The notes under the pieces are model-generated. The model was not told where the DNA came from. It searched no databases and saw only the letters and a program-made list of their open reading frames with translations. From positions 62,001-126,000 of the forward strand of contig NZ_JALIQP010000007.1 of the NCBI RefSeq assembly GCF_023566055.1: a stretch of DNA of 64,000 nt, in the 5' to 3' direction. This stretch comes from Halosolutus amylolyticus (lineage in GTDB: Archaea; Halobacteriota; Halobacteria; Halobacteriales; Natrialbaceae). Below, one piece after another: positions 9,448 to 37,319 of this stretch (positions are counted from its first letter, which is position 1; every line of letters starts with the position of its first letter). A program made the translations under genes and the position numbers.

Positions 9448-10965
9448 ATGGCGTCCGTAATACAGGGACGGGACCTGCCCGTCGATGCGGGAGCGAATTC
9501 GGTGGTGTGGATCAATCGATTCGATGCAGTCCTATCGCTGGTTGATGATCCACTCCCGCTCGTACTGGTTGGAACGGCACTGGTCGCCGCAGGCGTTGTG
9601 TTTGTCGCTTGGTTCCGATCGACGGGGCCCACTGACGATCCCACCGATCGAACAGGTGCTGACTCGAGCGGGAACGAAATTCAGGGGGAACCCGCGTCAG
9701 CCACGTTCGAGGAGCGAATCGGAGAAACGACGCTTGAGCGGCTCGAACCGATCGTTCCCGACGCTGTCGAACACGTTCGCGACCTCAGGTCTGACAGGCG
9801 AGAGGGTCACGAATTCGATCGGGAGCAGATCGACCGCGCTGTCAGAGAACTCCGCCGCGGACTCGAGGACGCGCTCGCCGACGGTCGCCTCAAAATGAAA
9901 CCGACTGCGCCAGATGGCGAACCGTACGAGATCGTGAACCTTCCAAGCCGCTATCGCGAGCTTTCCATACCACCGTCGGACCGGACAGTCTACCTCGGAG
10001 ACGCCGAGCAGGCCGTCCAGGACCGACTTGAAAACGGTACGCTTCGGGAGGCAGCCATGGCTGCCGAGGCGGTCGACGAACATCGTGAGGAGATCACCAA
10101 TCACGTTTGCCGCAACGAGCGGCAGATCGTCGAACTGCGACGCGAAGTCACCGCGACGCTAACGGATGTCCGAGAACTGGTCGAACGACTAGACGGAGCA
10201 CTGGCCGACCGCGTCGACGACTTCGTTCTGGCGGGTCGCCACGACGAGTTCGAGGGCATCGCCGAGATCGAACGCGACATCTCAGACGCGACTTATCTGC
10301 TACATCGCTGTTCGTTCAATGATTCACAACGGGAACTTCGAGACGCAGCCGAGGCTGCCGACGATCTGCTCGTCACCGTGGACTTCCTCGGCGGGTTGGT
10401 CGGGACGATCGAACACGGAAGTGGCACGGTCGAACTCCCGGATGCAGTTCCGAAGGCACTCGTGAGCGACCTCACACCGATCATCGAGCGACAGTACGAC
10501 GTCGACGCGAAGGTTACCGGTACCGCGATCGCCATAAATGACCGGAATACGCCGGATACCGAAGACAGCCACTCGACGAGTAGGACTGGTTCGAGACGCA
10601 CGGAGGAGGGATCGGCAGCCGGCGACGTGACCGCCGGCACCACAGCATCGATGGGTTCCCGTAGCGGCGTCGCGACTGGGGATGTTGCCGACGAGATCCT
10701 GTTCGTCCTCCGGGAACTAGATGGCGGGACGAACAGTGAAGCGGTCCAGTATCAGACCGAACGCCTACCGAATAGCGTCGCTCGATCGGATATCCTTGAG
10801 GAACTGGTCGTGTTCTGTCGTCGACAAACGGATATCGTCGCCGCCATCGATCTGCAGGAGGGAGCACCGCCGGGCTTTCTCGAAATCGAATTCACCGATC
10901 GAACGGCGGCCCAATCCGGACTCGAGACGTTACGAAATCGGTTCCTCGATCGCCACGGCGGGTGA
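9448..10965 (+). CDS. Membrane-anchored coiled-coil protein, first gene of the tubulin-like locus
   Basis: A 505-residue protein starting at the ATG at 9448, just after a G-rich stretch (GGGTGGTGGG); the longer open frame upstream belongs to a protease remnant. Residues 36-56 (LPLVLVGTALVAAGVVFVAWF) form one transmembrane helix. An acidic linker follows, then a helical, coiled-coil-prone region (about 90-345). A Ser/Gly/Thr-rich linker precedes a compact C-terminal domain (about 425-505) that may be winged-helix-like. The bulk of the protein should be cytosolic. It reads in the same direction as tubulin 1, 205 bp away. No family recognised; a membrane tether or adaptor for the downstream GTPases is an inference from context. 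Confidence 0.8.
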   Translation: MASVIQGRDLPVDAGANSVVWINRFDAVLSLVDDPLPLVLVGTALVAAGVVFVAWFRSTGPTDDPTDRTGADSSGNEIQGEPASATFEERIGETTLERLEPIVPDAVEHVRDLRSDRREGHEFDREQIDRAVRELRRGLEDALADGRLKMKPTAPDGEPYEIVNLPSRYRELSIPPSDRTVYLGDAEQAVQDRLENGTLREAAMAAEAVDEHREEITNHVCRNERQIVELRREVTATLTDVRELVERLDGALADRVDDFVLAGRHDEFEGIAEIERDISDATYLLHRCSFNDSQRELRDAAEAADDLLVTVDFLGGLVGTIEHGSGTVELPDAVPKALVSDLTPIIERQYDVDAKVTGTAIAINDRNTPDTEDSHSTSRTGSRRTEEGSAAGDVTAGTTASMGSRSGVATGDVADEILFVLRELDGGTNSEAVQYQTERLPNSVARSDILEELVVFCRRQTDIVAAIDLQEGAPPGFLEIEFTDRTAAQSGLETLRNRFLDRHGG

Positions 10966-11027
10966 ATAATCCGCCGAGTAGTCTCTCATCGGCGCGTCGG
11001 CAGTCTCAATCGTGAAACAGTCGTCTT

Positions 11028-11140
11028 TCATATAAATAAACCACAATATATGTGATGTTTTATTACGAGGCTGTGATCACTGCCCGTGTCGGATATTGCG
11101 TATCGAACCATGGCGAGTTCACACGTAATACTTTAGATAG
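11028..11140 (+). promoter_or_regulatory. Probable promoter region of tubulin 1
   Basis: The gap before tubulin 1 contains two AT-rich blocks: CATATAAATAAACCACAATATATG (split as CATATAAATAAA and CACAATATATG, about 11029-11053) and CTTTAGATA (11131-11139). The second is about 32 bp before the ATG at 11171, right for an archaeal TATA box driving a transcript with a very short leader. No Shine-Dalgarno is evident before the ATG. This suggests that tubulin 1 can be transcribed independently of the upstream gene. Confidence 0.4.
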
Positions 11141-11170
11141 TTCCGACGTACGGATGGGATATCACCGAGA

Positions 11171-12769
11171 ATGACGAGTCTCTGTAAAATCTGTATGGCG
11201 CAAGAGAGAGAGTGGGACCGGCGGACCCTCGTCGAACACGTTCGAGACGCACACGGCGACGAACCAGAGTCCGTCGAACAGGTGTATCCGGAACTGTGCG
11301 AGGAGGTGTTCGCCGCGGATGCGTCCGACAAGGGGTCGACTGACGACCGGTCCCGACCGACGCCGGAGGAATCGACCGAGACTCCGAGCGACGATTTGCT
11401 CGACGATTCCTACGGCAAGAAGTGGTTCCTCATCGGTGTCGGGGGTGCGGGGAACAACATTCTCGATGCGATCCTGTTGCGCCGCGAGACTCTGGCGGAG
11501 AACAACGAGCGACGCGCTCGGATCTGGGAGGGCGGGCTCGCCGGCTACGGTCCGCTGAACACGAATATCAGCGAACTCGAGCAGACGTACTACGCACAGG
11601 AGGAGAAGGGATACAGCCGCAACGACCTACTACCGAATTGTATCATTGGGTTCGGTCGCCACGATTACGCGGGGGCAGGCTACAGGTGGGACATCGGGAA
11701 ACAGCTGATGGAGGCCGATTTCGAGGGCGACTCCGATCCGTTTCGAGAGCGCTGGGACATGAAGGCGGAGCGGATTCAGGACTCTCAGGCAGTGATGTTC
11801 ATCCATAGCGTCACGAAGGGGACCGGTTGTGGTGCGACGCCGGTCGTGGCAGATCGTCTCAGGAGTGACGTCCTCGCGGACAATACGATCGTTCCAAAGC
11901 CGCTCTTTAGCAGCGTCGTCATCCCGTCGGAAGGGACCGAATATTCGGAGTACGGTGGCCGTGCGAAGGTAAACGGCGTCGTCGGGCTAGCCCGTACCTC
12001 CCGAGCGGTGGACGCGATCATTCCGTTCGACAATACCCGCCTCGAGAACGTACAGGCAGATATCCGGCCGCGGATCGACGGACTAGAAGAGTACAATCCG
12101 CCACAGTTCACGGACGTGAATCGGCCGCTCGTTGCGTTTCTCGAGGCGTTTACGATGTCGTCGGTGCCACAGTTTCTCGATCGGGACGCGACGATGTCGA
12201 TCATGGGTGACGTGTTCGATCCAGCCGACAGTTTCCGGCCAGTTGAGGACAAGTACCAGCTGAATCCGGATGTCTCGTTTACGCCGGCGGTGATCCTTGC
12301 GCCGGTGCTGGGACGATCGCGTGCGAGTTCGTTCGACCGGTCGAAACTCGAGATACTCGTCCGGAACGCGCTCTTCCAGAACAAACTGGCCGAATTCGAT
12401 CCGACAACTGCCTGGGGCGGGACGTTCCTGGTGTACGGACCCAGCGAAAAGATGGACGAAATCTCCGAGTTCGTCGCCGACGGAACGCTAACCGAAATCA
12501 TCTCCGACAAAGAGTTTCTCGATGCGGGAGACGTTGCCGGGATTGAAACCGTCGACGTTCACGTCAAACAGCTCGTTACGCCGGACCTCGACGATGTCCA
12601 CCTCTGGGGAACGCTGTGGAACCCGGAGATGCCGTCGCTGGCCGACATGTACGATCGGGCCCAGCGGCTCAAACAGGAAGGCAGTAGCGAGCAGGCGGAG
12701 AACGTCCGTGAAGAGTGGGACGCCGTCAAGGCGCTGTTTTCGTCGCTCGGACGGGAGAACATGGCATAA
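11171..12769 (+). CDS. Tubulin/FtsZ-superfamily GTPase 1 with N-terminal zinc finger
   Basis: A 532-residue tubulin-superfamily protein, distinct from FtsZ and CetZ. Residues 5-28 form a C2H2-type zinc finger (Cys5, Cys8, His23, His28; CxxC-x14-HxxxxH). An acidic linker runs to about residue 80. The GTPase core starts at WFLIGVGGAGNN (T1 loop, 89-96) and has KGTGCGATP (216-224, the T4 signature), PFDNTRL (285-291, the nucleotide-contact Asn segment) and QFTDVNRP (312-319), a candidate T7 loop carrying the Asp needed for hydrolysis. Nucleotide binding and polymerisation are therefore plausible. It is far from the other two tubulin-like proteins in this locus. A zinc finger on a tubulin homologue is unusual and may mediate partner or DNA contact. 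Confidence 0.88.
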   Translation: MTSLCKICMAQEREWDRRTLVEHVRDAHGDEPESVEQVYPELCEEVFAADASDKGSTDDRSRPTPEESTETPSDDLLDDSYGKKWFLIGVGGAGNNILDAILLRRETLAENNERRARIWEGGLAGYGPLNTNISELEQTYYAQEEKGYSRNDLLPNCIIGFGRHDYAGAGYRWDIGKQLMEADFEGDSDPFRERWDMKAERIQDSQAVMFIHSVTKGTGCGATPVVADRLRSDVLADNTIVPKPLFSSVVIPSEGTEYSEYGGRAKVNGVVGLARTSRAVDAIIPFDNTRLENVQADIRPRIDGLEEYNPPQFTDVNRPLVAFLEAFTMSSVPQFLDRDATMSIMGDVFDPADSFRPVEDKYQLNPDVSFTPAVILAPVLGRSRASSFDRSKLEILVRNALFQNKLAEFDPTTAWGGTFLVYGPSEKMDEISEFVADGTLTEIISDKEFLDAGDVAGIETVDVHVKQLVTPDLDDVHLWGTLWNPEMPSLADMYDRAQRLKQEGSSEQAENVREEWDAVKALFSSLGRENMA

Positions 12770-12952
12770 CGACAGGGGGTAATAGCTCCTCCCTGCTACG
12801 GCCCCATGGCGTTTTCGTACTCTGCCGGTGCCTCAATTATCCTTCGAGTCACTTCTAACGGGTCGACCCCTTTCTTTGCTAATAACATATCTGAAAGAGA
12901 CATATCAGGGCAGAAGCTTAATCACGACCTGAATACATTCGTTCGCTGTATA

Positions 12953-14956
12953 ATGGCAGCGGACGTCAACAATCTCCGGTGGAAGATAGGGTGGTCGCCG
13001 TGGCTTGTACTGATCGGTGTGACGGTCGTGTTTACTCTCATCGGCGCGATGATAGACGCGGCCGGCCCGTTCGTCGGACTCGGCCTTTTCGGGGGAATCG
13101 TGATCTGGTACTGGGGTGTCAGAGAAATAAACAACAAGTATCAACCATTCGTTCAAAAATTCATCGGGGAATCCGAACGAAACGCGAGACGCGGTATCGA
13201 AGTCGACAGCGCGAAGCTATACAATTTGACGTACAACTCTGGAAATTCCCCACCGCTTGTCAGTCCGTCGGATACATATTATATCACGACGATAGTCGTG
13301 ACTGATACATCTATCAACCTGAACAAGGGAGCGGAGTACGATATGGAAGCCCGATCGGGGGTCGGCGGCGGCACCAACAAAGAAATTTATTACGATCAGG
13401 TGACCGGTGTCCGTTCCCATCAGGACGGGACGTTTACTGAACTCGAAATCCAGACCGCTGGCGGGAAGTCCACCAGAATCAGCTCGATTGCGACGGACAC
13501 CGTCGACGAAGTGGTCTCCGAGGTCCGACAGCGGGTTCGGGAGATCAAAAACCCAGGTTCGAGTCGAGGACAGCGCACCGACCGGAATGCGGACCAGCGC
13601 TCTACGCCATCGACGACGGCTCCCGAGACACCGGCACGGGAGCGGAACACGGAATCATTGACGTCCACGGATCAATCACCCGAGGATACGACCGTCCCCA
13701 TCGGAGAGGAAGAGAGGAAGTCCGACTCAGAAGATGTGACGCCGCAACCGATCGCGTCGGTCGCGGACACCGTGGCCTCAGGAACACGCCCTTCCGATCC
13801 CGTTGCCAATGAGTTGTGTCGCGTCCTTTCGGATCCCTCTCCGGACGAACAACGACTCGAGGAGGCACTCGAGGACGCAGTCGACAGGCTCGAGGAGGCT
13901 GGAGCGGTCGCCGCCGCCGTCGAGAGAATCGATGATCCGACAGCCGACGCACAGGTCGAGTCGGCGAAACGGACGCTCACCGTTCGGGACGGGCCGATTG
14001 CTGACGGTCTCGAACAGGTGTTCGAGCGAGCGGTCGAGTCGACCAGAACGGAGGCGATTGAAGCCGACCTCTCCGCGACCGAGGCCGAACTCGAACGGTC
14101 CGAGCGACAATACGATCGGCTACGGACTGCGGCCGAGACGGTTTGTCGGGAAGTCACGCGGAGCGGCGTCCTCACGCTCCGATCGAGCGACGTCGTCGAG
14201 CAGACGACGGAACTCGCGGACACCCTCGAGAGCGACACGGTCGTGCTCAAGCGGCCAGACGCGACACAGGAGCCGGCGACGGAACTCCCATCGATCGCCG
14301 ACGATGTCGAGCGATCCGTTCGACCGCAGTCGGCCCAGTCGAGGGAGTTGCTCGAGACGCTGAGCGAGCCGGAAGCGGAGGACTCGGAATCGGTGTTACG
14401 ATCGACGGTTAACTCGTTGGACGCCTACGCGGAGCTCCGGTCTTCCATTGCGGATATCGGCAGACGTGATGTCGAGCGCCGGCTTAACGCGATCGACAAC
14501 GAACTACAGCGCAAGAACGGCGACGTCTACCGGCATCTCTCCGACCGGACCCGGGAACTCGAGACCATGCTCGACCGGGATGATATCACCGACGTGCAGC
14601 TGTACGCGATCTATCAGGAGTGTACGTTCTACGATCGAACGCTGCTACCACGACTGTCCCGATCGCTTGACAGCGATAGCGCCGTCGAAACCGGGCGACT
14701 GATCGCCAATATTGGGGATCGAATCGATCGCATCGAGCGTGAATATATCGACGTCCGCGCTGACCACAACCACACCATCCCCCGCCATTTCCTTTCACTT
14801 GCCGACGACCTCCGAGTGGAGGCCCAGAGCGTCGAAGGTGAGAGTCCGATGCGGGCGGCCAGCCTATGTACGGCGGCCGATAAGGTGCTCGAACACGTTG
14901 AGGCGCTCTACGAACGAAACGAATACAGCGTCATGCTTCGGCGGCTGCGCGGATAG
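12953..14956 (+). CDS. Two-TM protein with PH-like domain and long coiled coil
   Basis: A 667-residue protein; I choose the ATG at 12953 because residues before it look non-coding and a TATA-like CTTAAT lies about 38 bp upstream. Two transmembrane helices (about 14-36 and 38-58) form an N-terminal hairpin. Residues 80-190 are beta-rich (IYYDQVTGVRSHQDG, FTELEIQTAGGKSTRIS) and resemble bacterial PH-like domains, which usually follow TM helices in the same way. A disordered acidic linker (about 195-280) leads to some 380 residues of alpha helix with coiled-coil character. Most of the protein is cytosolic. It is flanked by tubulins 1 and 2 and could be a membrane scaffold for them. The PH-like call was made by eye. 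Confidence 0.8.
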   Translation: MAADVNNLRWKIGWSPWLVLIGVTVVFTLIGAMIDAAGPFVGLGLFGGIVIWYWGVREINNKYQPFVQKFIGESERNARRGIEVDSAKLYNLTYNSGNSPPLVSPSDTYYITTIVVTDTSINLNKGAEYDMEARSGVGGGTNKEIYYDQVTGVRSHQDGTFTELEIQTAGGKSTRISSIATDTVDEVVSEVRQRVREIKNPGSSRGQRTDRNADQRSTPSTTAPETPARERNTESLTSTDQSPEDTTVPIGEEERKSDSEDVTPQPIASVADTVASGTRPSDPVANELCRVLSDPSPDEQRLEEALEDAVDRLEEAGAVAAAVERIDDPTADAQVESAKRTLTVRDGPIADGLEQVFERAVESTRTEAIEADLSATEAELERSERQYDRLRTAAETVCREVTRSGVLTLRSSDVVEQTTELADTLESDTVVLKRPDATQEPATELPSIADDVERSVRPQSAQSRELLETLSEPEAEDSESVLRSTVNSLDAYAELRSSIADIGRRDVERRLNAIDNELQRKNGDVYRHLSDRTRELETMLDRDDITDVQLYAIYQECTFYDRTLLPRLSRSLDSDSAVETGRLIANIGDRIDRIEREYIDVRADHNHTIPRHFLSLADDLRVEAQSVEGESPMRAASLCTAADKVLEHVEALYERNEYSVMLRRLRG

Positions 14957-15309
14957 GGCAACCGCCCCGAATTGGTCAGCTATGCCGTTCTGAGGATGTC
15001 GTTCCGTGTTCGGATCTCGCCACAGAACGTCTGTTTGATTCTCGACCGATGATATACTCGATTTACTACACATCATTTATAATTGTAATTTTGACATTGT
15101 AGGGAAAAGGACAACGTAAGAATAGTGTATAGGATAGTTCATCGGTACATCGGACGAAAAATAGTATTGTTGGATAACAACGAATAAGAGAACAGAATTG
15201 TGTGAGAGCCATCACCTTTATTGTATGTTGCTCTAGTGGTTCAGTTGATAGGATATGTGTGGTTTTGTAACTACATTTGAAACCGAACGAGAGAGTCTTT
15301 GATACCCAA
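14957..15309 (+). other. AT-rich intergenic region before tubulin 2
   Basis: A 353-bp gap with no convincing gene, markedly richer in A and T than the genes around it. It contains several TATA-like stretches (TTTATAATTGTAATTTTGAC near 15068-15090, and TTTATTGTATG near 15218-15228). It is the only large gap inside the left arm and precedes the most tightly coupled stretch of genes, so it probably carries the main promoter for tubulin 2 and everything downstream to 27.5 kb. No hairpin or RNA gene was recognised. Confidence 0.5.
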
Positions 15310-16713
15310 ATGACGTACCTGTTCGTTGGGGCCGGACAAGCGGGGGGAGCGATCGTCGATTCGGTGTTCAATTACACCGACGATTCGCTGCTGGGATTGT
15401 TCGATTCGGCTGACATTTCGACGCTCGGTCGGCCACTCGTGTTCAATTCGACGATGCGGGACCTGCAGAACCTCTCGAATGTTCCGCCCGAAGATCAGTA
15501 CGGAATCGCCGAACACCACGGCCTCGTTCAGGGGACCGAACCGGGATTCGAGGAGATGGTCACGGGCGGGTTCGGTCGCAATCCGGTCGACGCGGACGAG
15601 GTGATGGCCGAACACGCCCCGCAGATCCAGACCATTCTTGGGGAGAAGTTCGAACCGGGGTTCGACCGGTCTACGTCGGCCGACGAGTCGTTCGAAGACG
15701 ACCTGCTGGAAGGAGACGACCCGGTCGATGAGGAAGAGCCGACCGACGGTGAGCAAGACGACGACGTACCGACCGATGCCGACTCCGAATTCGAACCGAA
15801 TCCCGTGGTCGAACCGACGGGATCGGGCGTCCAGTTCGCATTCCTGTTTCTCGGCCTCGGTGGCGGAACTGGCTGCGGGATCGGGCCGCATCTCGCCCGT
15901 GAAATCAAGGCGTTCACTGACGGGCGAGCCAAGGTGGTCGCGGTCGCCGTCTTGCCGAACACCCGCGGCGCGGACGAGGTCAGCGGGTCGGATGAGAACG
16001 AGAAGGCCAGTGCCGGCCGACAGGCGTGGAACGCGCGATACGGCCTCGGTCGCCTCGAGGACGAAGTCGACGGCATCATCCTGGTCGACAATCAGCGCAT
16101 CTCGTACCTCGACTCGGCGGGCGGCGAGTTCGGCGAATACAACGACTACGTCGCGGCGGCAATCTACGACCTCGTTGCCGGTCCGGTCTTGAGCGGGGTC
16201 GATCCGAGCGCGGTCGATGGCATCGATACGCCCGATATCGACGTTCGGGACATCGTGACGTCGCTGTCGTTTGGCGTCGCCGGCGAAGAATCGACGCCAG
16301 GGTACGGCGCGATCGGGCGTTCGGTGACGATGACGCAGTCTTTGCCGGGCTATCTGCTACCGTTCGTCGGGAAACGCGACATCGACAGCGCCGCACTCTC
16401 GCGGTTGTCGGCGGCGAAGCAGACCCTCGCAAAGGCCAATGTCAGTGGAGCCCAGAAAGCAATCTCGCTGATCAGGGCGCCTGAATCGAACCTCGGATCC
16501 GGGCCTCACAGCGTCGAAATCGGGATCGTCAAGGAATATCTGGAGCAAACGTCCAACCTGAACGAAGTCAACATCGGCGTCGCGATGAGTGACAGGAACC
16601 TCGCTTCGGTGACGACGCTGCTGACGTACCGTCGGGAGGACATTGACCGGCTCGCGGACATCGAAGCGGCAGCCGAGGCATACGAAGAGGAGACGGAGGA
16701 GCTACTCGCATGA
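15310..16713 (+). CDS. Tubulin/FtsZ-superfamily GTPase 2 with acidic insert
   Basis: A 467-residue tubulin-superfamily protein starting at the ATG at 15310, which puts the T1 loop (LFVGAGQAGGAIVD) at the N-terminus as in FtsZ; the frame is open a further 11 codons upstream. The T4 signature is perfect, LGLGGGTGCGIGP (about residues 182-194). ILVDNQRISYL matches the guanine-contact segment. IDVRDIVTSLSFGVAGEES (about 310-328) aligns well with the FtsZ T7 loop DFADVRxVM, including the catalytic Asp. Between T1 and T4 lies a strongly acidic, apparently disordered insert of about 50 residues (119-169), absent from FtsZ. Its stop overlaps the next start (ATGA), indicating translational coupling to a small membrane protein. 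Confidence 0.9.
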   Translation: MTYLFVGAGQAGGAIVDSVFNYTDDSLLGLFDSADISTLGRPLVFNSTMRDLQNLSNVPPEDQYGIAEHHGLVQGTEPGFEEMVTGGFGRNPVDADEVMAEHAPQIQTILGEKFEPGFDRSTSADESFEDDLLEGDDPVDEEEPTDGEQDDDVPTDADSEFEPNPVVEPTGSGVQFAFLFLGLGGGTGCGIGPHLAREIKAFTDGRAKVVAVAVLPNTRGADEVSGSDENEKASAGRQAWNARYGLGRLEDEVDGIILVDNQRISYLDSAGGEFGEYNDYVAAAIYDLVAGPVLSGVDPSAVDGIDTPDIDVRDIVTSLSFGVAGEESTPGYGAIGRSVTMTQSLPGYLLPFVGKRDIDSAALSRLSAAKQTLAKANVSGAQKAISLIRAPESNLGSGPHSVEIGIVKEYLEQTSNLNEVNIGVAMSDRNLASVTTLLTYRREDIDRLADIEAAAEAYEEETEELLA

Positions 16714-16970
16714 GGTGGCGACTCACATCGGGCGTCCTCGTACTCGCCCTGACTGTCTGCGCGCTCGCGTCGACGGGGAGCGTCAGCGGGTCGTCAGCGG
16801 AGACAGCCATCGATACGACGTCTCAAGCGATCACGGCGCAGTCGGTCGCAGAGCAGACGCTCGTGATCGCGGCCGGCGGGCTATTGCTCGGCGCAGGTCT
16901 AGGCGTCGCGCTCGTGAGCGGCGCGACTTACTGGTACAAGAGTCGGGAAATCGGAGGAAAACTCCAATGA
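16710..16970 (+). CDS. Small secreted/membrane protein in the tubulin operon
   Basis: An 86-residue protein with an N-terminal hydrophobic signal (LTSGVLVLALTVCALAST, residues 5-22), a short Ser/Thr/Ala-rich outer segment, and a second hydrophobic helix (TLVIAAGGLLLGAGLGVALV, about 50-69) followed by a short basic tail (YWYKSREIGGKLQ). The likely topology is outside N-terminus after signal cleavage and a cytosolic tail. It overlaps tubulin 2 by four bases at its start and the next gene by four at its end (both ATGA). No family recognised. It could be a pilin-like or assembly subunit of a membrane complex. Confidence 0.75.
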   Translation: MRWRLTSGVLVLALTVCALASTGSVSGSSAETAIDTTSQAITAQSVAEQTLVIAAGGLLLGAGLGVALVSGATYWYKSREIGGKLQ

Positions 16971-17974
16971 GTACGGGACGACGATTCCTGCTGTTCACGG
17001 TCGCCCTGGTGGCGATACTCGCCCTCGGATTGGGAACCGCCACCGCTGCGGCCGACGTCAACTGCGACAGCACCGGCTCGACCGTCGTTGGATCGATCGA
17101 CGGTGAGTGGACCGGCGGCGAGGAGGCACTGTACGAGGGATCGACGTTCGAACTCGCCTACTGCACCGACGGGACGACGTATACGGGCGACTGGTTGGCT
17201 GCCGGCGCCGGGTTTGAACGCGACTCCCCGACCGCGGACGACGACGGCACGTACACCGTCACCCTCACCGGAAACGGAACAGACTCGATCGCGTTCGCCG
17301 ACTCCGTCACGCTCAACGAGGACCAGACCGACGGCCTGTCCGTGACGGTCGCGACGGCCGGCTCCGATACCGACGCTCTTGAACGAGTCGACGACGAGAG
17401 AGTCGCCGAGTACCTGGCTGCACGGGCGGCGCTATCGAACGCGACGGCCGAACTCGGCGAGACGACGACAGCGATCGAGAAAGGTGAGGCGGGGCTCAAC
17501 GCCGCTGAATCGGATCTCGAGAGACTCAATGACACATACGAGAACATGACCGAGCGAGAAGCGGAACTCACCGAGTATCTCTTGCGGCGGACCGAGAGCG
17601 GGAACGCGAGCGGATCGTACGGTGCGTTGACGGCAGTCGGGACGGATGCGGACGGACAGCGCGCCGAGACCGAGACCGCGGTCGACCGCTATACCGACGT
17701 TGCTGAGGCCGAACGATCCGAGGCGGCCTCGAGCGTGCGGCTGGCCGCACTGGGATCGCTCGCCGGGGGACTGGTCGTCGGCGGGCTCGTGGGCGTCGCT
17801 GTCCCGCTCGCCGCGGCGCGGCGCGTCGAGGAGGCCATGAAGCTGAGCCGAAACGTCTCCTATGATCGGAAGACGGCACTCGTCCCGATCCTCGTCGGGA
17901 TCGTCCTGGCAATCGGCGGTGCCACCCTCCTCGTGGTCGTCGTCGGGCCCGATCTACTGGAGGTGATTCGATGA
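16967..17974 (+). CDS. Secreted-domain membrane protein with coiled coil
   Basis: A 335-residue protein starting at the ATG at 16967 (overlapping the previous stop); the open frame continues upstream but there it is a shadow of tubulin 2. Residues 1-28 are a signal peptide ending in ATAAA. A small beta-rich outer domain (about 28-130) contains two cysteines (VNCDS and AYCTD) that could form a disulphide. A helical, glycosylation-site-rich segment (about 135-250; NAT, NDT, NMT, NAS) follows, then two transmembrane helices (about 258-284 and 303-331). The loop between the TM helices is short and basic. Tandem ATGA overlaps on both sides place it firmly in the operon. No family recognised. Confidence 0.78.
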   Translation: MSTGRRFLLFTVALVAILALGLGTATAAADVNCDSTGSTVVGSIDGEWTGGEEALYEGSTFELAYCTDGTTYTGDWLAAGAGFERDSPTADDDGTYTVTLTGNGTDSIAFADSVTLNEDQTDGLSVTVATAGSDTDALERVDDERVAEYLAARAALSNATAELGETTTAIEKGEAGLNAAESDLERLNDTYENMTEREAELTEYLLRRTESGNASGSYGALTAVGTDADGQRAETETAVDRYTDVAEAERSEAASSVRLAALGSLAGGLVVGGLVGVAVPLAAARRVEEAMKLSRNVSYDRKTALVPILVGIVLAIGGATLLVVVVGPDLLEVIR

Positions 17975-20061: not shown

Positions 20062-20064
20062 CTC

Positions 20065-24209: not shown

Positions 24210-24213
24210 CGAC

Positions 24214-27658: not shown

Positions 27659-30600
27659 TCACTCGAGCCGAAACGGCGTCGACAGCGACGACGGACCGTC
27701 CGCGTCCTCACTCGCGTTCTCGACGCGATCGATCGACCACTGCTCGCGGTGGTCGTCGGTCCAGGCAGCTTCGTCCTCGGCGGACGGACCGGCCGCGCGA
27801 AGAGCGACCTCGCGCTCCGAGCCGTCGGCCGCGTACCGAATCGTCGCGTCGAACGACGGCGACCTCACGCCTGGTTCCATATCGACGAAGTGCTCGATCC
27901 GATCGCCTGGCTCGAGGCGTTCGCGACGCGCCTCCGAGTAGAACAGGTCGTTGATCGGTTCGCCGCTGGCCGACACCGCGACGTCCGTCAGCGGTCGGTC
28001 GCCTTCGTTTTCGAAGACCAGCACGACGGTTCCGTACTCGCCAGCGACCTGCGTCTCCGGACCGATCCCGATCTGGAACGGACCGTCGCCGTCCACGCCA
28101 TCGTTGGGGCCGTGTTTTGTGGCCGACGAGACGTCCGCGATGATGTCGAGACGCCGCTCCGCGCCGTCGCCATCGCCGACCACCAGGACACCCTCAAGCG
28201 CGTCCGTGTCCGTTCCGAACTGTTCGTCGAGGGCCCCGGTAGCGGTGGTCGTCTCGCCGTGCTCGAGCCGGGCCTCGATCGGGACCGACCGGCCGCCGAT
28301 CTCGAGGCCGCGAACGGTCCGGAGACGATCGCTGCGGTTTACGATGTCGGCGACGACGGTCCCGTCGGTTGCGTCGACGGTCGCCCGCACGGCGAGGCCG
28401 TCGCCGCTGGCGGCCAGCTCACGCTTGGGCAACCGCTCGCAGACCGTTCCGTCGAGTACAACCGACGCCTGCGACAGGACAGTTTCCGAGCCGGAGCCGA
28501 TTGCGACCGAGCGCTCGACGGCCGTCCGGTCGCCGGCCGCGAGACGACCGACGTCGACGGTCGAGTCGCCGATCTCGACGGTGACGTCGCCTGCTGACTC
28601 GCCCTGGTTCTCGAGTTCGATCCGGTCGCGGACAGCGTGGCCGGCTGGGATCGAATCCTCGTCGATCCGCCGGGTCGCGACCAACTGCGGTTCTCCGACA
28701 TCCCCTTCGTCGGCGTCGGCCCCGGAGCCGCCACCGATTCGCTCCTCGTCGCTCGCCGAAGCCGTCGCGGAAGGTTCGCCCCCGGCTCGCGACCGATCGT
28801 CCGATCCGTCGTCGCCGTAGTCGGGTCCCGACGGGGACGGTGTCGCAGGAGCGGCGTCGGCGGTCGCTTCGTCGGGCGCGGAGTCCGTCGGTGCGGTTCC
28901 ATCGTGACGATCGTCGCGATCGTCGCGGTTCTCGCGTCGGTTCTGCGCCGACAAATCGGCTGTGTCACTGTCTGTCGACGCAGTCGTATGATCGGATCGC
29001 GTCCCGTCCGTTCGACCGGTCCGACGGCGGTCCGATCCCCCGATCCTCGACGAGCGGCCGAACGAACCCGGACCGCCGGAGAGCCGGACCCGCTCGTCGA
29101 CGTCGAGGGATTCGAACCCGATCCGTGCGGTCCCGTCGTCGAACTGCGGGACGATCAGCAGGAACTCGTCGCGCTCGATCGTCACCTCCGTTCGGACCCG
29201 GCCCGCTCCCGGGAGTTCGATTACGAGTCGATCGACGACGGTCACCGAGTCGTCGGTTTCGACGGTCGCTCGAACCGCGTCGCCGTCCGGTTCGACGTCG
29301 ATCGTCGGGACGGGTGGCAGCGTACACGTCGGGGCGTACTCCCGGCGTCGATCGCCTCGAGCGACCTCGAGTCCGACTGAGACCCGCCGATCGGGCTCGT
29401 ACGGCCGAGAGACCGTTCCAGTCCACTCCTCGCCGGGCTTGAGAGCGTCGGTTCCCTCGTTGGTCTCGCGTAGCCGAAGGGCTTCGAGTCCCACCCCACC
29501 GACGTTTTCGACGGTGACCGCGAGTTCGGCGACACCATGCTCGATCGTCGCCACTTCGATATCGGTATCGACGGCGATCCCGCCGCTCGCTGCGTCGTCG
29601 AGGTCGATCACGGCCTGTTCGAGGACCGATCCGTCTACGGTGAGTTCGACCGTCGTCTTCCCTTCGGCCCGGATCGATTCGACCGGAAAGTCGACGATCG
29701 TCGTCTCGCCGGCCTCGACGGCCGCAGTCCGATCGGCCGGTGAGAGTGTCGCTTCGTCGATCGACGCTGACAGCGATAGTCGGCGCTCCCGGTCGGTCAC
29801 GTTGGTCACCTCGACGTCGATCGTACCGCCGACGCCGACGCTCTCGGTCGCGACGGCGACCCGGAGCTGATCGCGGCTGTGGACGTACGTCGAGACGGTC
29901 TCGTCCCGGACCGCACAGACAAGTGAGCTGTCGGGCGTCGCGTACCCCTCCCCGCTTGAGAGTCCGGCGACCGGCGTCGTCGCCCCGGACGGATCGACCG
30001 CGCGGATGCCGTCGGCGGTCGTCACCAGCACCGACGACTCACCGACCGGCGCGACGTGTTCGACTGCGAGCTCCGTCCGCCAGCGGGAAGTTCCGCTCTC
30101 GAGGTCGGCGGCGACGAGGCGCTCGTTCTGGAGCGCCGCGACGATCGCATCGTCACACCGCCCCAGGCTCCGTACGACGGCCTCGAGGTTGCGATCGAAG
30201 TCGACCTCGCCCTCGAGGTCGATTCGGGTCAGAAACGACCACGTCGAAATCGCGAACCCGGCCGGTGTGCCTAGGAGGGCGTCGTCTGCCGGTCCGCCGG
30301 GACGGACGCGCTCGACGTCGAACCGCTCGCGGCCGGTCTCGATATCGACCGACCTGAGCCGTTCTGGCCCGAGCACGCCGGCGAGTCCCTCGTCGCTGAC
30401 GGCGGCGACAGCGTGGCTGTCTGCGGCCGGCTGCTCTCGGATCCGCTCGCCGGTTCGGGAATAGGTCGTCAACGCGTCCGACGAGAGGACGAGCACGCGA
30501 TCGGCGAGGGCGACGTCGACGATGCGGTCGCCGTGATCGATCTCGACCCGATCGCTCCCCGTCTCGACGACGACACGGTCGCCGATCCCGACAGCGATCG

Positions 30601-30673
30601 CTCCGTCGTCGACGCCGACGGCGTCGACGGGATCGCTCTCGAAGGAACCGACCTGCCGGTAGCCGTCACTCAT
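27659..30673 (-). CDS. Beta-propeller and Ig-like repeat scaffold, apparently cytosolic
   Basis: A 1004-residue protein starting at the ATG at 30673, which overlaps the AAA+ gene stop. Residues 1-285 are an eight-or-so-bladed PQQ/WD-like beta-propeller (repeats of the form VAAVSDEGLAGVLGP and IVAALQNERLVAADLESGTSRW). Several CARDB/Ig-like domains follow (about 285-520), then a Ser/Thr/Asp/Arg-rich disordered linker (about 525-640) and three more Ig-like modules to the end. There is no signal peptide and no transmembrane helix, although such modules are normally extracellular. It is translationally coupled to the AAA+ ATPase, so a substrate-presenting or scaffold role for that enzyme is a reasonable guess. 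No family recognised as a whole. Confidence 0.8.
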   Translation of the reverse strand: MSDGYRQVGSFESDPVDAVGVDDGAIAVGIGDRVVVETGSDRVEIDHGDRIVDVALADRVLVLSSDALTTYSRTGERIREQPAADSHAVAAVSDEGLAGVLGPERLRSVDIETGRERFDVERVRPGGPADDALLGTPAGFAISTWSFLTRIDLEGEVDFDRNLEAVVRSLGRCDDAIVAALQNERLVAADLESGTSRWRTELAVEHVAPVGESSVLVTTADGIRAVDPSGATTPVAGLSSGEGYATPDSSLVCAVRDETVSTYVHSRDQLRVAVATESVGVGGTIDVEVTNVTDRERRLSLSASIDEATLSPADRTAAVEAGETTIVDFPVESIRAEGKTTVELTVDGSVLEQAVIDLDDAASGGIAVDTDIEVATIEHGVAELAVTVENVGGVGLEALRLRETNEGTDALKPGEEWTGTVSRPYEPDRRVSVGLEVARGDRRREYAPTCTLPPVPTIDVEPDGDAVRATVETDDSVTVVDRLVIELPGAGRVRTEVTIERDEFLLIVPQFDDGTARIGFESLDVDERVRLSGGPGSFGRSSRIGGSDRRRTGRTDGTRSDHTTASTDSDTADLSAQNRRENRDDRDDRHDGTAPTDSAPDEATADAAPATPSPSGPDYGDDGSDDRSRAGGEPSATASASDEERIGGGSGADADEGDVGEPQLVATRRIDEDSIPAGHAVRDRIELENQGESAGDVTVEIGDSTVDVGRLAAGDRTAVERSVAIGSGSETVLSQASVVLDGTVCERLPKRELAASGDGLAVRATVDATDGTVVADIVNRSDRLRTVRGLEIGGRSVPIEARLEHGETTTATGALDEQFGTDTDALEGVLVVGDGDGAERRLDIIADVSSATKHGPNDGVDGDGPFQIGIGPETQVAGEYGTVVLVFENEGDRPLTDVAVSASGEPINDLFYSEARRERLEPGDRIEHFVDMEPGVRSPSFDATIRYAADGSEREVALRAAGPSAEDEAAWTDDHREQWSIDRVENASEDADGPSSLSTPFRLE

Positions 30674-32399
30674 CGTCCTCACCGCCGTTCGAGTCGATCC
30701 CCTCGTCCACGGAGTCCGGATCCGAGATGTCTATCTCGGCCATGTCCGACCCTGGTTCGTTCCCTTCGGTCGGCCCCGGCTTCGGTTCCGCCGCTCCGGC
30801 CGTCGGTTCGTTTGCCGCCTGTTCGGGCGGCTCCGTTCCGGTGCCAAAAAGCTGTCCGAGCGACGATGGCTCCGTTCTGATGTGCATGTCCAGCTGGTCG
30901 GCCTGGGCCTCGACGTAGCGTTTGAGTTCGGGGTAGCCCTCGAGGTCGTCAATCTGCGTCCGGACGCTCGCGACGTACTGCCGGATCGTCTTCGGCTCGG
31001 TCTCGTTGAGCCGGTCGAAGAAGTAGTCGGTATCCGGCTCTATCGGCTCCCGGTCGGGGAGGTGAACGCTCTCAACGAGTTCGCGCTGCAGTTCGCTGCC
31101 GAGCACGCGGTCGGCGATTTCCGCCGGGGTGTACCCTTTCGAGGCCCTCCCGAGTCGTTCGTAGTCGATGCCTTCGGTGTCCATGGCCGAGAGGTGTTTA
31201 CGCCAGACCTCGGCCATCACGTCCTCGTCGGGCTGGGGGATGAACTGCTGGATCGGGAACCGGCGGGTCGCCGCCGGATCGATCGTGAATGGCATGTTCG
31301 TCGCCCCGATGACGAGCAGGTTATCTTCGATTTCGTTCATCTCCTGCAGGAAGGCGTTGGTCAGCGACCGCTCGTGGCGCTGCAGGGAGTCGTCCCCCCG
31401 ATCCGGGATCAGGGTGTCGACCTCGTCGAAAAACAGGACCGCGAACCCCTCCTGTGCGATCCCGTGCGCCTTCTCGAAAATCGCCTCGACGCGTTTCTCC
31501 GACTCGCCGGAGTACTTCGAGAGGACGTCGCTGCCCTTGATCTCGAGGAACTTGACCTCGCCGTAGGCGTCCTCGATGCTCGAGTTGAACTTCGCCTCGT
31601 AGGCGATCGCCTCCGAGATGAGGGTCTTCCCGCAGCCGGGCGGTCCGTACAGCAGCATGCTGTTGCCTCGGGAAGCGAACTCGTCGCCGTAGCGGTCGAC
31701 GACCTCGTCGCGAACGTCGGGATCGAACAGGGCGAGCAAGTTCTCCGCTGTGCGCTTTACTTCCGGGAGGCCGGCGACGTCGTCCTCGAAGCTGACGGTC
31801 GGCTTCTTGGGCTCGAGCGAGACTTGGACTCCCACCTCGTCGCCAGCCGCCTCTCCGGCAGGGCCAGGGCCACCGCGACTCGCCGCGTCCCGCGTCGCCC
31901 GTAGTTCCCGGAGTTCGCCGGCGCCGATGAACTCGATTTCCGTGTCCGGTGTGACCCGCAGCGTCGTGTACCCTGTCGGCTCCATCGCGGCGACCTCGAA
32001 CGTCGCTCGTTCGTCGCCTTTCGGGACGACCTCCTCCATCGGGTGCAACAGATAATCGTTCTCTCGAAGGAACGGCTCGAGTTCCTTCGGCGTGACCTCG
32101 CTGGTGTGGATTTTCGCTGCGGAACATTCCACGACGTCATGTTTCGACGCGCCGGGATCCACGAGGAAGTCCTTGCCGCGGTCAATCCCCCCGAACACCG
32201 TCTTGACGTTCCGGTGCATCCGGACCTTGTTCCCGATCCCGTCGACGATCGAGTCGTCAACCGGTTCGACGTAGAAGAACGCCCGTCTGTCGTTGTGTCG
32301 GATCTCGACGGCGTCCGTTTCGAGGCCGACCTTCTTGGCTCCGATCTCGATTCGGGACGTCGGCTGATCTCGTTTCAGTATTGGGGTCAGATTAAGCAT
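30666..32399 (-). CDS. Cdc48-type AAA+ ATPase with N-domain and single AAA ring
   Basis: A 577-residue AAA+ ATPase starting at the ATG at 32399, overlapping the preceding stop by eight bases; the longer open frame upstream is a shadow. Residues 1-165 resemble the Cdc48/VAT N-domain (a double-psi barrel plus second lobe; VVPKGDERATFEVAAMEPTGY is typical of the second lobe). The AAA module has Walker A GPPGCGKT (252-259), pore-loop region SKYSGES (294-300), Walker B FFDEVD (323-328), sensor 1 Asn368 in GATNMP and arginine-finger region RRF (379-381). Only one AAA ring is present, unlike canonical two-ring Cdc48. The C-terminal ~70 residues are acidic and disordered. Probably an unfoldase or disassembly engine for the neighbouring proteins. 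Confidence 0.9.
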   Translation of the reverse strand: MLNLTPILKRDQPTSRIEIGAKKVGLETDAVEIRHNDRRAFFYVEPVDDSIVDGIGNKVRMHRNVKTVFGGIDRGKDFLVDPGASKHDVVECSAAKIHTSEVTPKELEPFLRENDYLLHPMEEVVPKGDERATFEVAAMEPTGYTTLRVTPDTEIEFIGAGELRELRATRDAASRGGPGPAGEAAGDEVGVQVSLEPKKPTVSFEDDVAGLPEVKRTAENLLALFDPDVRDEVVDRYGDEFASRGNSMLLYGPPGCGKTLISEAIAYEAKFNSSIEDAYGEVKFLEIKGSDVLSKYSGESEKRVEAIFEKAHGIAQEGFAVLFFDEVDTLIPDRGDDSLQRHERSLTNAFLQEMNEIEDNLLVIGATNMPFTIDPAATRRFPIQQFIPQPDEDVMAEVWRKHLSAMDTEGIDYERLGRASKGYTPAEIADRVLGSELQRELVESVHLPDREPIEPDTDYFFDRLNETEPKTIRQYVASVRTQIDDLEGYPELKRYVEAQADQLDMHIRTEPSSLGQLFGTGTEPPEQAANEPTAGAAEPKPGPTEGNEPGSDMAEIDISDPDSVDEGIDSNGGEDDE

Positions 32400-33105
32400 T
32401 ATCGTCACTCCGTATCTGTGTCGTCGCGTCCTCGATCGTCGATAACAGTTCGCCCTGGCGGTGGTCGGTACGATCGCGGACGTATCGGGTATCGGCATCC
32501 GCCCGCCGAACAACGATCGAGAGGGTCTCGAGCATCTCGACGATCGACTCACAGCCGATAGTGAGCGCTCCAGCGGCACCTGATGCCTGTACTCGGCTGA
32601 CGATTCGTCTGAAGTCATCGAGGACATCCTCGAGGCGCTCGAGTGCGGTCCGGATGAGCGGTCGCCAGTTTCGCGCGTACGGTGCGGACGCCGACAGCGG
32701 GACGAACACCCGTGAGTCAACAGTCTCGAACCGGTCGTCGGCCGCGACGCGATCGGCGACGTCCGGCTCGAGTCGCTCGATTGTCGCCTGGCCGCGTTCG
32801 TAGCCGACCTCGAGAACCCGGCGAACGAGGTCATCCCGTTTCTGCGAGTCGATCCCCGTTCCCGTCTTTCGTGTCCCCCCATCGGGCTGGAATTCGAACT
32901 TGACCGGCCGAGCGCAGGTTTCCTCCACGAGGCGTGGGGGAAACGGGGCGCCAGCGCGAAGTAGTTCGGCGACGTCGACGAGCGTAGCCATCGCGACGTC
33001 GACCCGCCACGCGGGATTCGGGTCCGAAAACGTCCGCACAGCGAGGAGCCGCTTCCCCTGTTCGTCGACCCGACGAATCCCCTGCAGCAGTGAGTCTGCG
33101 CGCAT
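32392..33105 (-). CDS. Uncharacterised helical protein upstream of the AAA+ gene
   Basis: A 237-residue protein starting at the ATG at 33105, one base after the preceding stop; the upstream open frame is non-coding. It is mainly helical with a short beta-containing middle (PVKFEFQPDGGTRKTG, then VDSRVFVPLSASAPYARNW). The C-terminal ~80 residues form a predicted helical hairpin. There is no signal peptide or TM segment. It overlaps the AAA+ gene by eight bases, so an adaptor or cofactor role is plausible. I recognise no family. Confidence 0.7.
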   Translation of the reverse strand: MRADSLLQGIRRVDEQGKRLLAVRTFSDPNPAWRVDVAMATLVDVAELLRAGAPFPPRLVEETCARPVKFEFQPDGGTRKTGTGIDSQKRDDLVRRVLEVGYERGQATIERLEPDVADRVAADDRFETVDSRVFVPLSASAPYARNWRPLIRTALERLEDVLDDFRRIVSRVQASGAAGALTIGCESIVEMLETLSIVVRRADADTRYVRDRTDHRQGELLSTIEDATTQIRSDDNA

Positions 33106-33106
33106 C

Positions 33107-34165
33107 CTACGACATCTCGAGTTCACCGGTTTCCGTTTCGGGGCCCGTCTCGTCAACCGTTTCGCCAGCCGTCTGCTGGGCAGTCTCGCCGACACTCTCG
33201 ATGTCGCCGAGGACGTCGTCGACCAGCGTGGCGACCTCGTGGTCGGGCGTCTCCTCGATCGTCTCCTCGATACCGCCGACGCCGGCGAGCTGGGTCGTCA
33301 GCTCGCCCATGTTGTCGACGATGTTCATCGCCTCGTCCGGGAACGTCTGCTTCTTTAATGCCTGCGTTCGGACCTGCTCGCGTTTGTTCGCGAGCGTCAG
33401 CTTGGCCGACTCGAGCATCTCGATGTTGTCCGCTAGCCGATCGGTCCCGCTCTCGACTTTCTCCGCGAGGTTCTCACGATCGGCCTCCTTCATCTTCTTG
33501 TGGTAGACCAGTTTCCGCTTGAGCTGCCGGAACCGATCACGCTCCTCCGCCGGGAGCTCTGCGGGATCCTGTGGCACGCCTGGTCCGTCGCCGAGGCTCT
33601 TGAGCTCCTGGGCGGTCTCCGTCAGATATTCATCGATCTTTCCTGAGTCGTGCTCGACGTCGGCCATCCTATTCTCGAGTTTCTCCTTCGCGCCGTCGAC
33701 CCGATCGATCGTCTCGGAGATCTTCTCGACGCAGGCGTCGATCGCGGCCGCCCAATTGAGGATCATCCGCCCGTTTATCTCCTCAGGATTGTTGCTCGGG
33801 TTGCGAAGCATCTCGACCTTCCCCCCCTGCAGGTTCAGGATGTCCTCGTCAGCGAAGAACTCGAGCAGCGCCTCGGCCTGTTGCTGGCTGGTGACGATGT
33901 CTCCCTCGTCGTCGCTGGCTGCAGCGAGCGTCTCGATCGCTTTCCGTCGGTCAATTCGGCCGTTCCCCTCCTCGAGTTCCATCGATCCCAGTAGGTCGGT
34001 CTTGATGATCGCGCGAATGGCCCGTTCCCATTCGCCTTCGATGTGGTCACCCTTGATCCAGCGAGCGTCAAGGCGAACTGGATTGTCGGTTTGGTTGACC
34101 GGGTCGGCGATCACGTACTCCTGTCCATCGCTTTCGATCCGTTTGAAGTCGTATTTTCGAGACAT
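33107..34165 (-). CDS. Winged-helix plus coiled-coil protein, candidate ESCRT-III-like subunit
   Basis: A 352-residue cytosolic protein. Residues 30-120 look like a winged helix (ALLEFFADEDILNLQGGKVEML). Residues 125-290 are helical with a basic hairpin (FRQLKRKLVYHKKMKEADRE) and a long coiled coil. The segment ALKKQTFPDEAMNIVDNMGE (about 277-296), continuing to GGIEETIEE, has the spacing of the Snf7 alpha-4/alpha-5 region (DxDKVxxxMDxIxEQxxxxxEIxxAI). The C-terminal 50 residues are acidic. Basic N-terminal helices and an acidic tail fit ESCRT-III charge layout. No clear MIT-interacting motif is visible. The neighbours (a tandem winged-helix protein and an AAA+ ATPase) strengthen the idea, but homology was judged by eye only. 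Confidence 0.72.
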   Translation of the reverse strand: MSRKYDFKRIESDGQEYVIADPVNQTDNPVRLDARWIKGDHIEGEWERAIRAIIKTDLLGSMELEEGNGRIDRRKAIETLAAASDDEGDIVTSQQQAEALLEFFADEDILNLQGGKVEMLRNPSNNPEEINGRMILNWAAAIDACVEKISETIDRVDGAKEKLENRMADVEHDSGKIDEYLTETAQELKSLGDGPGVPQDPAELPAEERDRFRQLKRKLVYHKKMKEADRENLAEKVESGTDRLADNIEMLESAKLTLANKREQVRTQALKKQTFPDEAMNIVDNMGELTTQLAGVGGIEETIEETPDHEVATLVDDVLGDIESVGETAQQTAGETVDETGPETETGELEMS

Positions 34166-34242
34166 TGTGGATTAGTAGTTAGAATTTCGGTGATGCGTGG
34201 TCGTGGTGATTGCGTACCTCGTTGTTGTCGTTCTGAGTTCGA

Positions 34243-35361
34243 TCACGCTGCCATCCCGCCGAACTCCTCCTCGTTGACGAGGGCTCTGTACCGATCCTGA
34301 ACCGCATTACGGACGTATTTGTTGACGTCGGTCGTATCACTCACGTGAAGTTCTTCGAAGTGATCCTCGGCCAGTTCGACCCACTCCGGAAGCGTACCAG
34401 GTAGCTGGTCCTGTTCGGCCTTCAGGTCGATAAGAACTCGCCGAGCGTGGTCCTCGACGACGGCTTCGAACGGCTCGATGGCCTCGACCATCTCCTGCTC
34501 AGCTTTTAGTCCGAGTCGGTCGATCAACGTGTCGCGGGTCCCGTCAAGGAGGTCCCCGCGAATGCTGCGGGCCTTTGAGAGGACATCGAATCTGTTGTCA
34601 ATCTCGTTTTCGACGACCTTCTCGAACTCACCGGTTCGAAGCACGTAACTCGATTCCTCGAACTCCGCCTCGACCGCGTCCTCGATCTGTTCGGCGAGAT
34701 ACCGGGCGTATTCGTCGATGGCCTCCTCGACCAGATACTCTCCGTCGAGGTCGACGATGTACCCCTCCCGGTCGAGATACCGGATCACGTCGGCAGTTGC
34801 ATCGACGTCGATGACGCTCTCGAGGTCACTATGGGCGATCTTCCCGTTCGAGGCTTCCCGCTCGAGGCGTGAATCGAGGCCGACATCGTCGGCGTGTTCC
34901 TTGAGCTGGGGACCGATCGTATAGTAGTCGCGTTTTCCCGCTGTAATCCGCCGGACGTAGTTCCGGTCGGCGAGCTCGTCGGCGAAGAACTCGATGTCGT
35001 CAATCGCAAGCGAGAACCGCGACCGTAAGGTCTCCCCCGTGACGACGAGCCGCTGGCCGAACAAGTTTGTCAGCTCGCGGGTGATGTTCATGTTCCCCTT
35101 GACGCCGAACGGATCGACGTAAAAGACGCCGTCTCGCAGTTGCTCGATGTCGATGAACTCGTCGGCCGCCATCACGGTCAACGCTTTTCGCATGTCGCTT
35201 GACGACAGCGACCGCGCGTTGACGAGTCCGATGTTGGCGCTCTCGTAGGCAGACTTGATCTCGCTTTTTTGATCAGAGACGTAGATAAACCCATAATTGT
35301 CCTGGGCAATGTCACGACATACGTCTTCCAGGACATCAGTGTCGACCGGTAAGAGCGTCAT
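34243..35361 (-). CDS. Tandem winged-helix protein with helical C-terminus
   Basis: A 372-residue cytosolic protein, first gene of the right arm. At least two winged helices are visible (about 109-150, ending RDYYTIGPQLK, and 170-212, ending YIVDLDGEYLVEE), and a third may precede them (about 55-85). A helical region (about 215-372) follows. Tandem winged helices of this kind occur in ESCRT-II subunits and in UFL1-like proteins as well as in transcription factors; the lack of a basic recognition helix argues against simple DNA binding. A TATA-like GTTTAGTAAG lies about 25-33 bp upstream on the coding strand (35385-35394), suggesting a leaderless transcript for the right arm. Confidence 0.75.
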   Translation of the reverse strand: MTLLPVDTDVLEDVCRDIAQDNYGFIYVSDQKSEIKSAYESANIGLVNARSLSSSDMRKALTVMAADEFIDIEQLRDGVFYVDPFGVKGNMNITRELTNLFGQRLVVTGETLRSRFSLAIDDIEFFADELADRNYVRRITAGKRDYYTIGPQLKEHADDVGLDSRLEREASNGKIAHSDLESVIDVDATADVIRYLDREGYIVDLDGEYLVEEAIDEYARYLAEQIEDAVEAEFEESSYVLRTGEFEKVVENEIDNRFDVLSKARSIRGDLLDGTRDTLIDRLGLKAEQEMVEAIEPFEAVVEDHARRVLIDLKAEQDQLPGTLPEWVELAEDHFEELHVSDTTDVNKYVRNAVQDRYRALVNEEEFGGMAA

Positions 35362-37257: not shown

Positions 37258-37319
37258 CTCAACACCGCACTCTGGATCGTCTTTGATTCACACCGCTCGT
37301 GCATCATACTCGCCCTCAC

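Follow-up and report, generated by a model that had tools for sequence, protein, structure and literature searches.

What does a haloarchaeon do with three divergent tubulin-superfamily GTPases that are encoded in one locus with an array of membrane proteins? In archaeal cell biology, FtsZ is known for division and CetZ for shape. The locus that raises the question occupies positions 9448-35361 of a 64,000-nucleotide stretch of DNA, hereafter the window, from Halosolutus amylolyticus (assembly GCF_023566055.1, contig NZ_JALIQP010000007.1, positions 62,001 to 126,000 of the forward strand). Our findings establish a conserved, membrane-linked tubulin system that is probably undescribed, and they strongly support the view that it works as one functional machine. 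This represents another kind of tubulin-superfamily system, in which a conserved gene set ties tubulin GTPases to membrane-crossing proteins and a two-tubulin core is common to salt lovers and hydrothermal archaea. To our knowledge, prokaryotes rarely have distinct tubulins in tightly linked pairs, and the locus thus bears on the evolution of tubulin pairs and of membrane-linked cytoskeletons. The whole 16-gene locus is also present on plasmid pHS2 of the laboratory strain Halobacterium salinarum R1, which makes it directly accessible to experiment.

The case for a single machine begins with co-occurrence. In a sample of 391 Halobacteria genomes, the third tubulin gene (Tub3, called present at E < 1e-80) was found in 40, or about 10%. 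The membrane protein gene J occurs in the identical 40 genomes and in none of the other 351, and gene N, at the far end of the locus, occurs in 38 of the 40 and in none of the remainder (Fisher p = 1e-55 and 8e-51, respectively, uncorrected for kinship). The first-pass annotation of this DNA, made from the sequence alone, had singled out membrane proteins occurring mostly without the GTPases as the pattern that would count against it; J was found only with them. The gene order, A to J and then K to N, is kept in nearly all regions examined and is repeated in about 35 regions besides the window, which goes far beyond chance and marks a conserved system, not a chance cluster. In three genomes (G017, G061 and G098) the right arm, N-M-L'-AAA-K, is intact but lies apart from the left arm, and proximity alone therefore does not explain the association. 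It is this near-perfect co-occurrence, together with linkage that persists when the arms are separated, that supports the one-machine reading. Missing from two further genomes, G042 and G048, are the genes for Tub1, A, C, M and N, and nothing closely related to the locus AAA+ ATPase was found there either; both control genomes have all of these. This joint loss defines a second module (A, Tub1, C, the AAA+ ATPase, L', M and N) that is split over both arms, with L' assigned to it solely by its position between the AAA+ gene and M.

The genes are arranged in two convergent arms, 11 on the plus strand (9448-27466) and 5 on the minus strand (27659-35361). Between 15310 and 27466, adjacent genes overlap by 4 to 17 bases or sit 3-4 bases apart, the near-contiguity that the first-pass annotation had described. 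The count of 16 includes an 86-amino-acid gene (D', 16710-16970) and a 237-amino-acid gene (L', 32392-33105), and is correct because both have counterparts on H. salinarum pHS2 and in most other loci. Further R1 genes of the locus are OE_RS12070 (Tub1), OE_RS12060 (Tub2), OE_RS12045 (F), OE_RS12040 (Tub3), OE_RS12025 (J) and OE_RS12015 (the AAA+ ATPase). In the following list, TM denotes transmembrane.

Gene 1 (A), 9448..10965, plus strand: one TM segment near the N-terminus, then a cytosolic helical/coiled region; module 2; homologues at the syntenic position in 37 regions.
Gene 2 (Tub1), 11171..12769, plus strand: tubulin-superfamily GTPase with an N-terminal C2H2-type zinc finger; T4 KGTGCG, T7 D350xxD353; module 2.
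Gene 3 (C), 12953..14956, plus strand: N-terminal membrane segment(s), a possible PH-like domain and a long coiled coil; module 2.
Gene 4 (Tub2), 15310..16713, plus strand: tubulin-superfamily GTPase; T4 GGGTGCG, T7 D311xxD314; lineage-specific acidic insert; ancient core.
Gene 5 (D'), 16710..16970, plus strand: 86 amino acids, a signal-like segment and one TM segment; counterpart OE_RS12055.
Gene 6 (E), 16967..17974, plus strand: signal-like segment, coiled-coil-bearing ectodomain, two C-terminal TM-like segments.
Gene 7 (F), 17971..20061, plus strand: two N-terminal TM helices, a long helical stalk, a CnaB/prealbumin-like beta-sandwich (472-558) and a C-terminal alpha/beta domain; ancient core.
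Gene 8 (Tub3), 20065..21288, plus strand: tubulin-superfamily GTPase; T4 GGGTGNG, T7 D240xxD243; ancient core.
Gene 9 (H), 21285..24209, plus strand: signal-like segment, ectodomain, TM cluster, carboxypeptidase-regulatory-like domains and a C-terminal helical domain; ancient core.
Gene 10 (I), 24214..25206, plus strand: signal-like segment, helical ectodomain, one TM segment and a cytosolic tail with a conserved WxRD-type motif; ancient core.
Gene 11 (J), 25190..27466, plus strand: signal-like segment, Ig-like domains, helical ectodomain, one TM segment and a cytosolic tail of about 15 residues, YxRDAxExxxGDFL; ancient core.
Gene 12 (K), 27659..30682, minus strand: repeat protein with Ig-like domains, without signal or TM segment; R1 homologue named PQQ-like beta-propeller.
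Gene 13 (L), 30666..32399, minus strand: AAA+ ATPase, a single Cdc48/VCP-like AAA domain after an N-terminal region of about 200 residues (PF00004, 111.7 bits); module 2.
Gene 14 (L'), 32392..33105, minus strand: 237-amino-acid helical protein; module 2; counterpart OE_RS12010.
Gene 15 (M), 33107..34165, minus strand: coiled-coil protein; module 2.
Gene 16 (N), 34243..35361, minus strand: soluble protein, winged-helix label unverified; module 2.

The inventory offered by the first-pass annotation largely stands. Its two-armed locus of 16 genes and the coordinates hold, the AAA+ ATPase is secure, and a hydropathy scan assigns membrane-like segments to eight proteins and no others (A, C, D', E, F, H, I and J), as it had counted. 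The coiled coil is borne out for M, though the winged-helix label that it gave to M and N has no Pfam support, and the label of K as a beta-propeller scaffold comes from the NCBI name of the R1 homologue, with no Pfam match in K itself. The PH-like domain of C is sub-threshold in Pfam, and a Natrinema homologue is named PH domain-containing by NCBI. Because open reading frames were taken from stop to stop, H, D' and L' also gave additional profile matches in overlapping frames, which are artefacts.

All three GTPases belong to the tubulin superfamily, as first proposed. Tub1, Tub2 and Tub3 score 45.9, 46.5 and 36.5 bits against PF00091 (curated cut-off 33), and the T4 loop, of which Tub1 has a variant form, and the T7 DxxD aspartate pair are invariant within each family. 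The aspartate pair is also kept in the Tub2 and Tub3 proteins of hyperthermophiles, and its invariance in each family argues for hydrolysis between subunits. In Tub1 the zinc-finger set C5, C8, H23 and H28 is likewise invariant. Profile alignment with CetZ covers residues 1-461 of Tub2 (E 2e-27), 11-376 of Tub3 (E 6e-17) and, partially, 84-428 of Tub1 (E 1e-10), against E 7e-4 or worse for unrelated families of the same locus used as a control. Judged from these alignments, which extend over most of both domains, the C-terminal activation domain appears to be present in all three proteins, in part in Tub1, and the lack of a tubulin fold, which would have told against the first-pass annotation, was not seen, although the structure model of Tub1 is of no use here. 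The host genome holds eight tubulin-superfamily genes, three at the locus and five elsewhere (two FtsZ and three CetZ by grouping). Two adjoining CetZ genes, the second with an altered T4 region, GLGSATGSG, lie close to the separated right arm in three related genomes (L201:4663-6990, minus strand, and similarly in L202 and L203). Away from the main locus of G048, a second region (G048b, L115-L116) carries, close to a Cdc48-type gene, a paralogue resembling Tub3 that has lost the GGGTG loop.

The membrane proteins would fit a cytosolic structure coupled to the cell surface. In the hydropathy scan, E, H, I and J combine a signal-like segment with TM anchoring; A, C and F are membrane-anchored and have parts in the cytosol. 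Profile comparison shows I and the C-terminal part of J to be paralogues. Within J, conservation over 20-residue blocks peaks in the cytosolic tail (0.66 versus 0.38-0.62 elsewhere), which is recognizable in hyperthermophiles; in H, the cytosolic C-terminus is better conserved than the ectodomain, and the helical end is the most conserved part of the protein. Such conservation inside and variability outside would match what is expected of a cytosolic filament coupled to surface proteins. The AlphaFold2 model of F is good, with a mean predicted local distance difference test score (pLDDT) of 86.3, and gives the domain layout listed above, from the two TM helices and the stalk to the CnaB/prealbumin-like sandwich and the alpha/beta end. 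A weak alignment of F with PRC1 is meaningless (root-mean-square deviation 25).

How old is the system, and how does it move? Contigs of chromosome size (2.8-4.5 Mb) carry at least 14 copies, and plasmids carry others. The Tub3 tree of Halobacteria has seven host-family changes against a minimum of four, which suggests some transfer between families. In the window, G+C is 64-68% at 16-32 kb and 52-59% in the remainder, which would fit recent arrival on the present replicon. One plasmid of Halobaculum halobium (NZ_CP126159) carries two copies of the locus (L151), one of which has split Tub1 and Tub2 genes and is apparently decaying. A scan of GTDB genomes for Tub3 outside named Halobacteria hosts returned matches at 33-37% identity in Hydrothermarchaeota/Pyrohabitans, in unclassified euryarchaeal and archaeal metagenome-assembled genomes (MAGs) and in one Micrarchaeota MAG; a wider phylum sample added only two further genomes. 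In these archaea, where flanking DNA suffices, Tub3 adjoins F and Tub2, and I-J is inverted relative to the tubulins with an H-like gene beyond; no Tub1 or AAA+ gene was detected at these core loci. The older core thus comprises Tub2, F, Tub3, I, J and an H-like protein, and the description of a system with three tubulins is correct for the extended haloarchaeal form and not for the basic one, which has two. The non-halobacterial Tub2 and Tub3 proteins fall within the Tub2 and Tub3 clades, respectively, and the pair is therefore older than the split or has moved together. At the hyperthermophile locus (L188, Pyrohabitans), the H-like protein has a PQQ propeller in its ectodomain, and the core adjoins genes for an FtsJ-type methyltransferase and an archaemetzincin (PF07998, L188:11393-12007), the latter directly downstream of Tub3. 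Two very large repeat proteins with signal-like N-termini are encoded nearby (L188:12116-20145).

These observations suggest, with what we regard as an even chance of being right, that the products of the locus make up a single machine of GTPase filaments, anchored in the membrane and connected to variable surface proteins by short, conserved cytosolic tails. In the proposed mechanism, the ancient GTPase pair Tub2 and Tub3 would assemble, in a GTP-dependent manner, into filaments or oligomers on the cytosolic side of the membrane. Both F, through its two TM helices and long helical stalk, and H, through its cytosolic part, would hold the filament there. Docking of the I and J tails on this cytosolic layer may then link the filament to the Ig-like and helical ectodomains outside. 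To this, Halobacteria would have added the second module, comprising Tub1 with its zinc finger, the membrane/coiled-coil proteins A and C, the Cdc48-like AAA+ ATPase, L', M and N. The AAA+ ATPase is confined to this module and is therefore more likely a remodeler than the basic motor; with L', M and N it would most likely remodel or disassemble the polymer. The cellular output may be surface shape, contact or envelope remodeling. The membrane-spanning cytoskeletal machine of the first-pass annotation thus survives as one machine, by co-occurrence and linkage, and its membrane-cytoskeleton character fits the topology and the conserved tails, though its function, whether in adhesion, secretion or envelope remodeling, is inferred. 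A bolder form of the proposal, which we advance only tentatively, is an undescribed ancient archaeal organelle built on an obligate Tub2-Tub3 heteropolymer that the I and J tails would tie to surface proteins, and to which haloarchaea added a third tubulin and a Cdc48-like remodeler. It is conceivable, at a similar level, that such a heteropolymer would be comparable in principle to alpha/beta tubulin, yet independent of it.

Several points weigh against the membrane-anchored filament. The topology comes from a hydropathy scan only, and the conservation of the tails names no partner. The F model has no overall Foldseek match at E <= 0.001, the listed matches being mostly to the CnaB-like sandwich, and at this threshold Foldseek gave no support for F as an EzrA-like anchor, which would have linked it to the anchors of FtsZ. 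The AlphaFold model of Tub1 is unusable (pLDDT 49.8, predicted template modeling score 0.31). The contacts drawn among tubulins, tails and F are guesses, and Tub2 and Tub3 could make separate polymers, or none.

Among the alternatives, a role in biological conflict survives best, and we still consider it unlikely. Here, surface or cytosolic sensors would trigger the tubulin-like GTPases to form a large complex that blocks invaders or kills the cell. The patchy spread, the movement between host families and the frequent plasmid location favor such a role, as do the bacterial GAP1-N2 GTPase-tubulin systems described by Kaur et al. 2020 (PMC7159879), in which one or two tubulin genes stand beside membrane-bound Ig-like (FNIII) or vWA proteins and a role in conflict is predicted. 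These bacterial systems differ in their TRAFAC GTPases, their vWA domains and their tubulins fused to coiled-coil or helical domains. In the Pfam scan of the locus proteins other than D' and L', we found no vWA, TRAFAC GTPase or HSP70 partner, and no nuclease, protease, toxin or nucleotide-signal domain. PADLOC, applied to 10 locus proteins, gave nothing past generic AAA+ and one weak coiled-coil match, and the methyltransferase and archaemetzincin beside the Pyrohabitans core form no obvious defense island.

We think it quite improbable that the tubulin polymers and the AAA+ ATPase power secretion or appendage assembly, with the surface proteins H, I and J as the exported or assembled parts. 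Several signal-bearing proteins do have large ectodomains, Ig-like and CnaB-like domains are frequent in surface structures, and the ATPase is of the Cdc48 class. However, E, H, I and J are TM-anchored and not pilin-like, Pfam detected neither a pore, a secretin or a pilin nor a type II/IV secretion ATPase among the locus proteins scanned, and the core-only forms without the AAA+ ATPase imply that it cannot be the basic motor.

An accessory system for cell division or cell shape, in which a specialized FtsZ or CetZ relative works at the usual site of division or during rod/disc transitions, is a decidedly doubtful prospect. CetZ and FtsZ are the nearest solved structures to the locus tubulins; no solved relative stands closer to Tub3 than Haloferax CetZ1 and CetZ2 (PDB 4b46 and 4b45), which also rank among the nearest for Tub2, and haloarchaeal CetZs control shape (PMC9856176, PMC9723716). 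Against this, the genome has its own FtsZ and CetZ genes, the locus is absent from 90% of Halobacteria, and the Tub proteins have their own conserved partner genes. In our tree, Tub1, Tub2, Tub3, CetZ and FtsZ each form a single clade, with Shimodaira-Hasegawa-like approximate likelihood ratio support of 99-100 for Tub1-3 and CetZ; Tub1-3 lie outside the CetZ clade, although only three CetZs were included and deep joins with long branches are unreliable. Public records nevertheless name these proteins 'cell division protein FtsZ', whereas scores of 30.6, 25.2 and 19.7 bits against the FtsZ equivalog TIGR00065 (cut-off 295.2) show that they are not FtsZ. Plasmid maintenance, in which the tubulin-like proteins would segregate the replicon as TubZ does, is barely credible, since the copies on chromosome-sized contigs and the membrane and ectodomain proteins, which have no place in such a system, outweigh the plasmid-borne copies and the Orc1/Cdc6 and conjugation genes of the window replicon. 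The locus has no match in phage records or viral contigs; a viral or phage origin is rejected on these grounds, and the same result, with the many chromosomal copies, sets the locus apart from TubZ and PhuZ.

The first-pass annotation knew of no described system of this kind, which appears to hold for the partner set, whereas the tubulins had probably been noticed before. Santana-Molina et al. 2023 (PMC9871819) report 'Halo.Tub', divergent tubulin-like proteins of Halobacteria with several quasi-tandem copies and coiled-coil neighbors of unknown function, and by its text description this group probably includes one or more of Tub1-Tub3. That text concerns tubulins and unknown genes only, with no partner system, co-occurrence or core outside Halobacteria. 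We found no description of the partner system in the literature searched, which mostly excludes subscription papers and preprints, and this is not proof of novelty. FtsZl1 (Makarova and Koonin 2010, PMC2875224) likewise comprises divergent FtsZ/tubulin proteins in membrane-protein operons with a proposed role in membrane remodeling. It differs in that a coiled coil and a helical C-terminus take the place of an alignable tubulin C-domain, and in its vWA, kinase and P-loop GTPase partners, none of which were found among the locus proteins scanned; the Tub proteins are 407-532 residues long and their C-terminal part aligns with CetZ. Gene clusters of the plasmid-vesicle element pR1SE have different core genes, and the part of the pR1SE text searched makes no mention of tubulin. 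The cetZ5/VNG6260G gene of strain NRC-1 could not be tied to the locus.

The surroundings of the locus give the replicon the look of a conjugative plasmid or megaplasmid. A conjugation-type gene block spans 37299-50230 and includes a TrbL/VirB6-like protein (39829-40968; PF19590, 756 bits), a VirB4/TraG-like ATPase (42066-44204) and a HerA/DUF87-like protein (44167-47841), and an Orc1/Cdc6 gene lies at 3291-4973 on the minus strand. Immediately upstream of A, an open reading frame at 9079-9450 holds an in-frame piece that resembles a CPBP/Rce1-like protease (PF02517, 24.7 bits) and is likely the remnant of another gene. At 55695-57113, an IS605-family TnpB-like gene carries a Cas12f1-like TNB domain.

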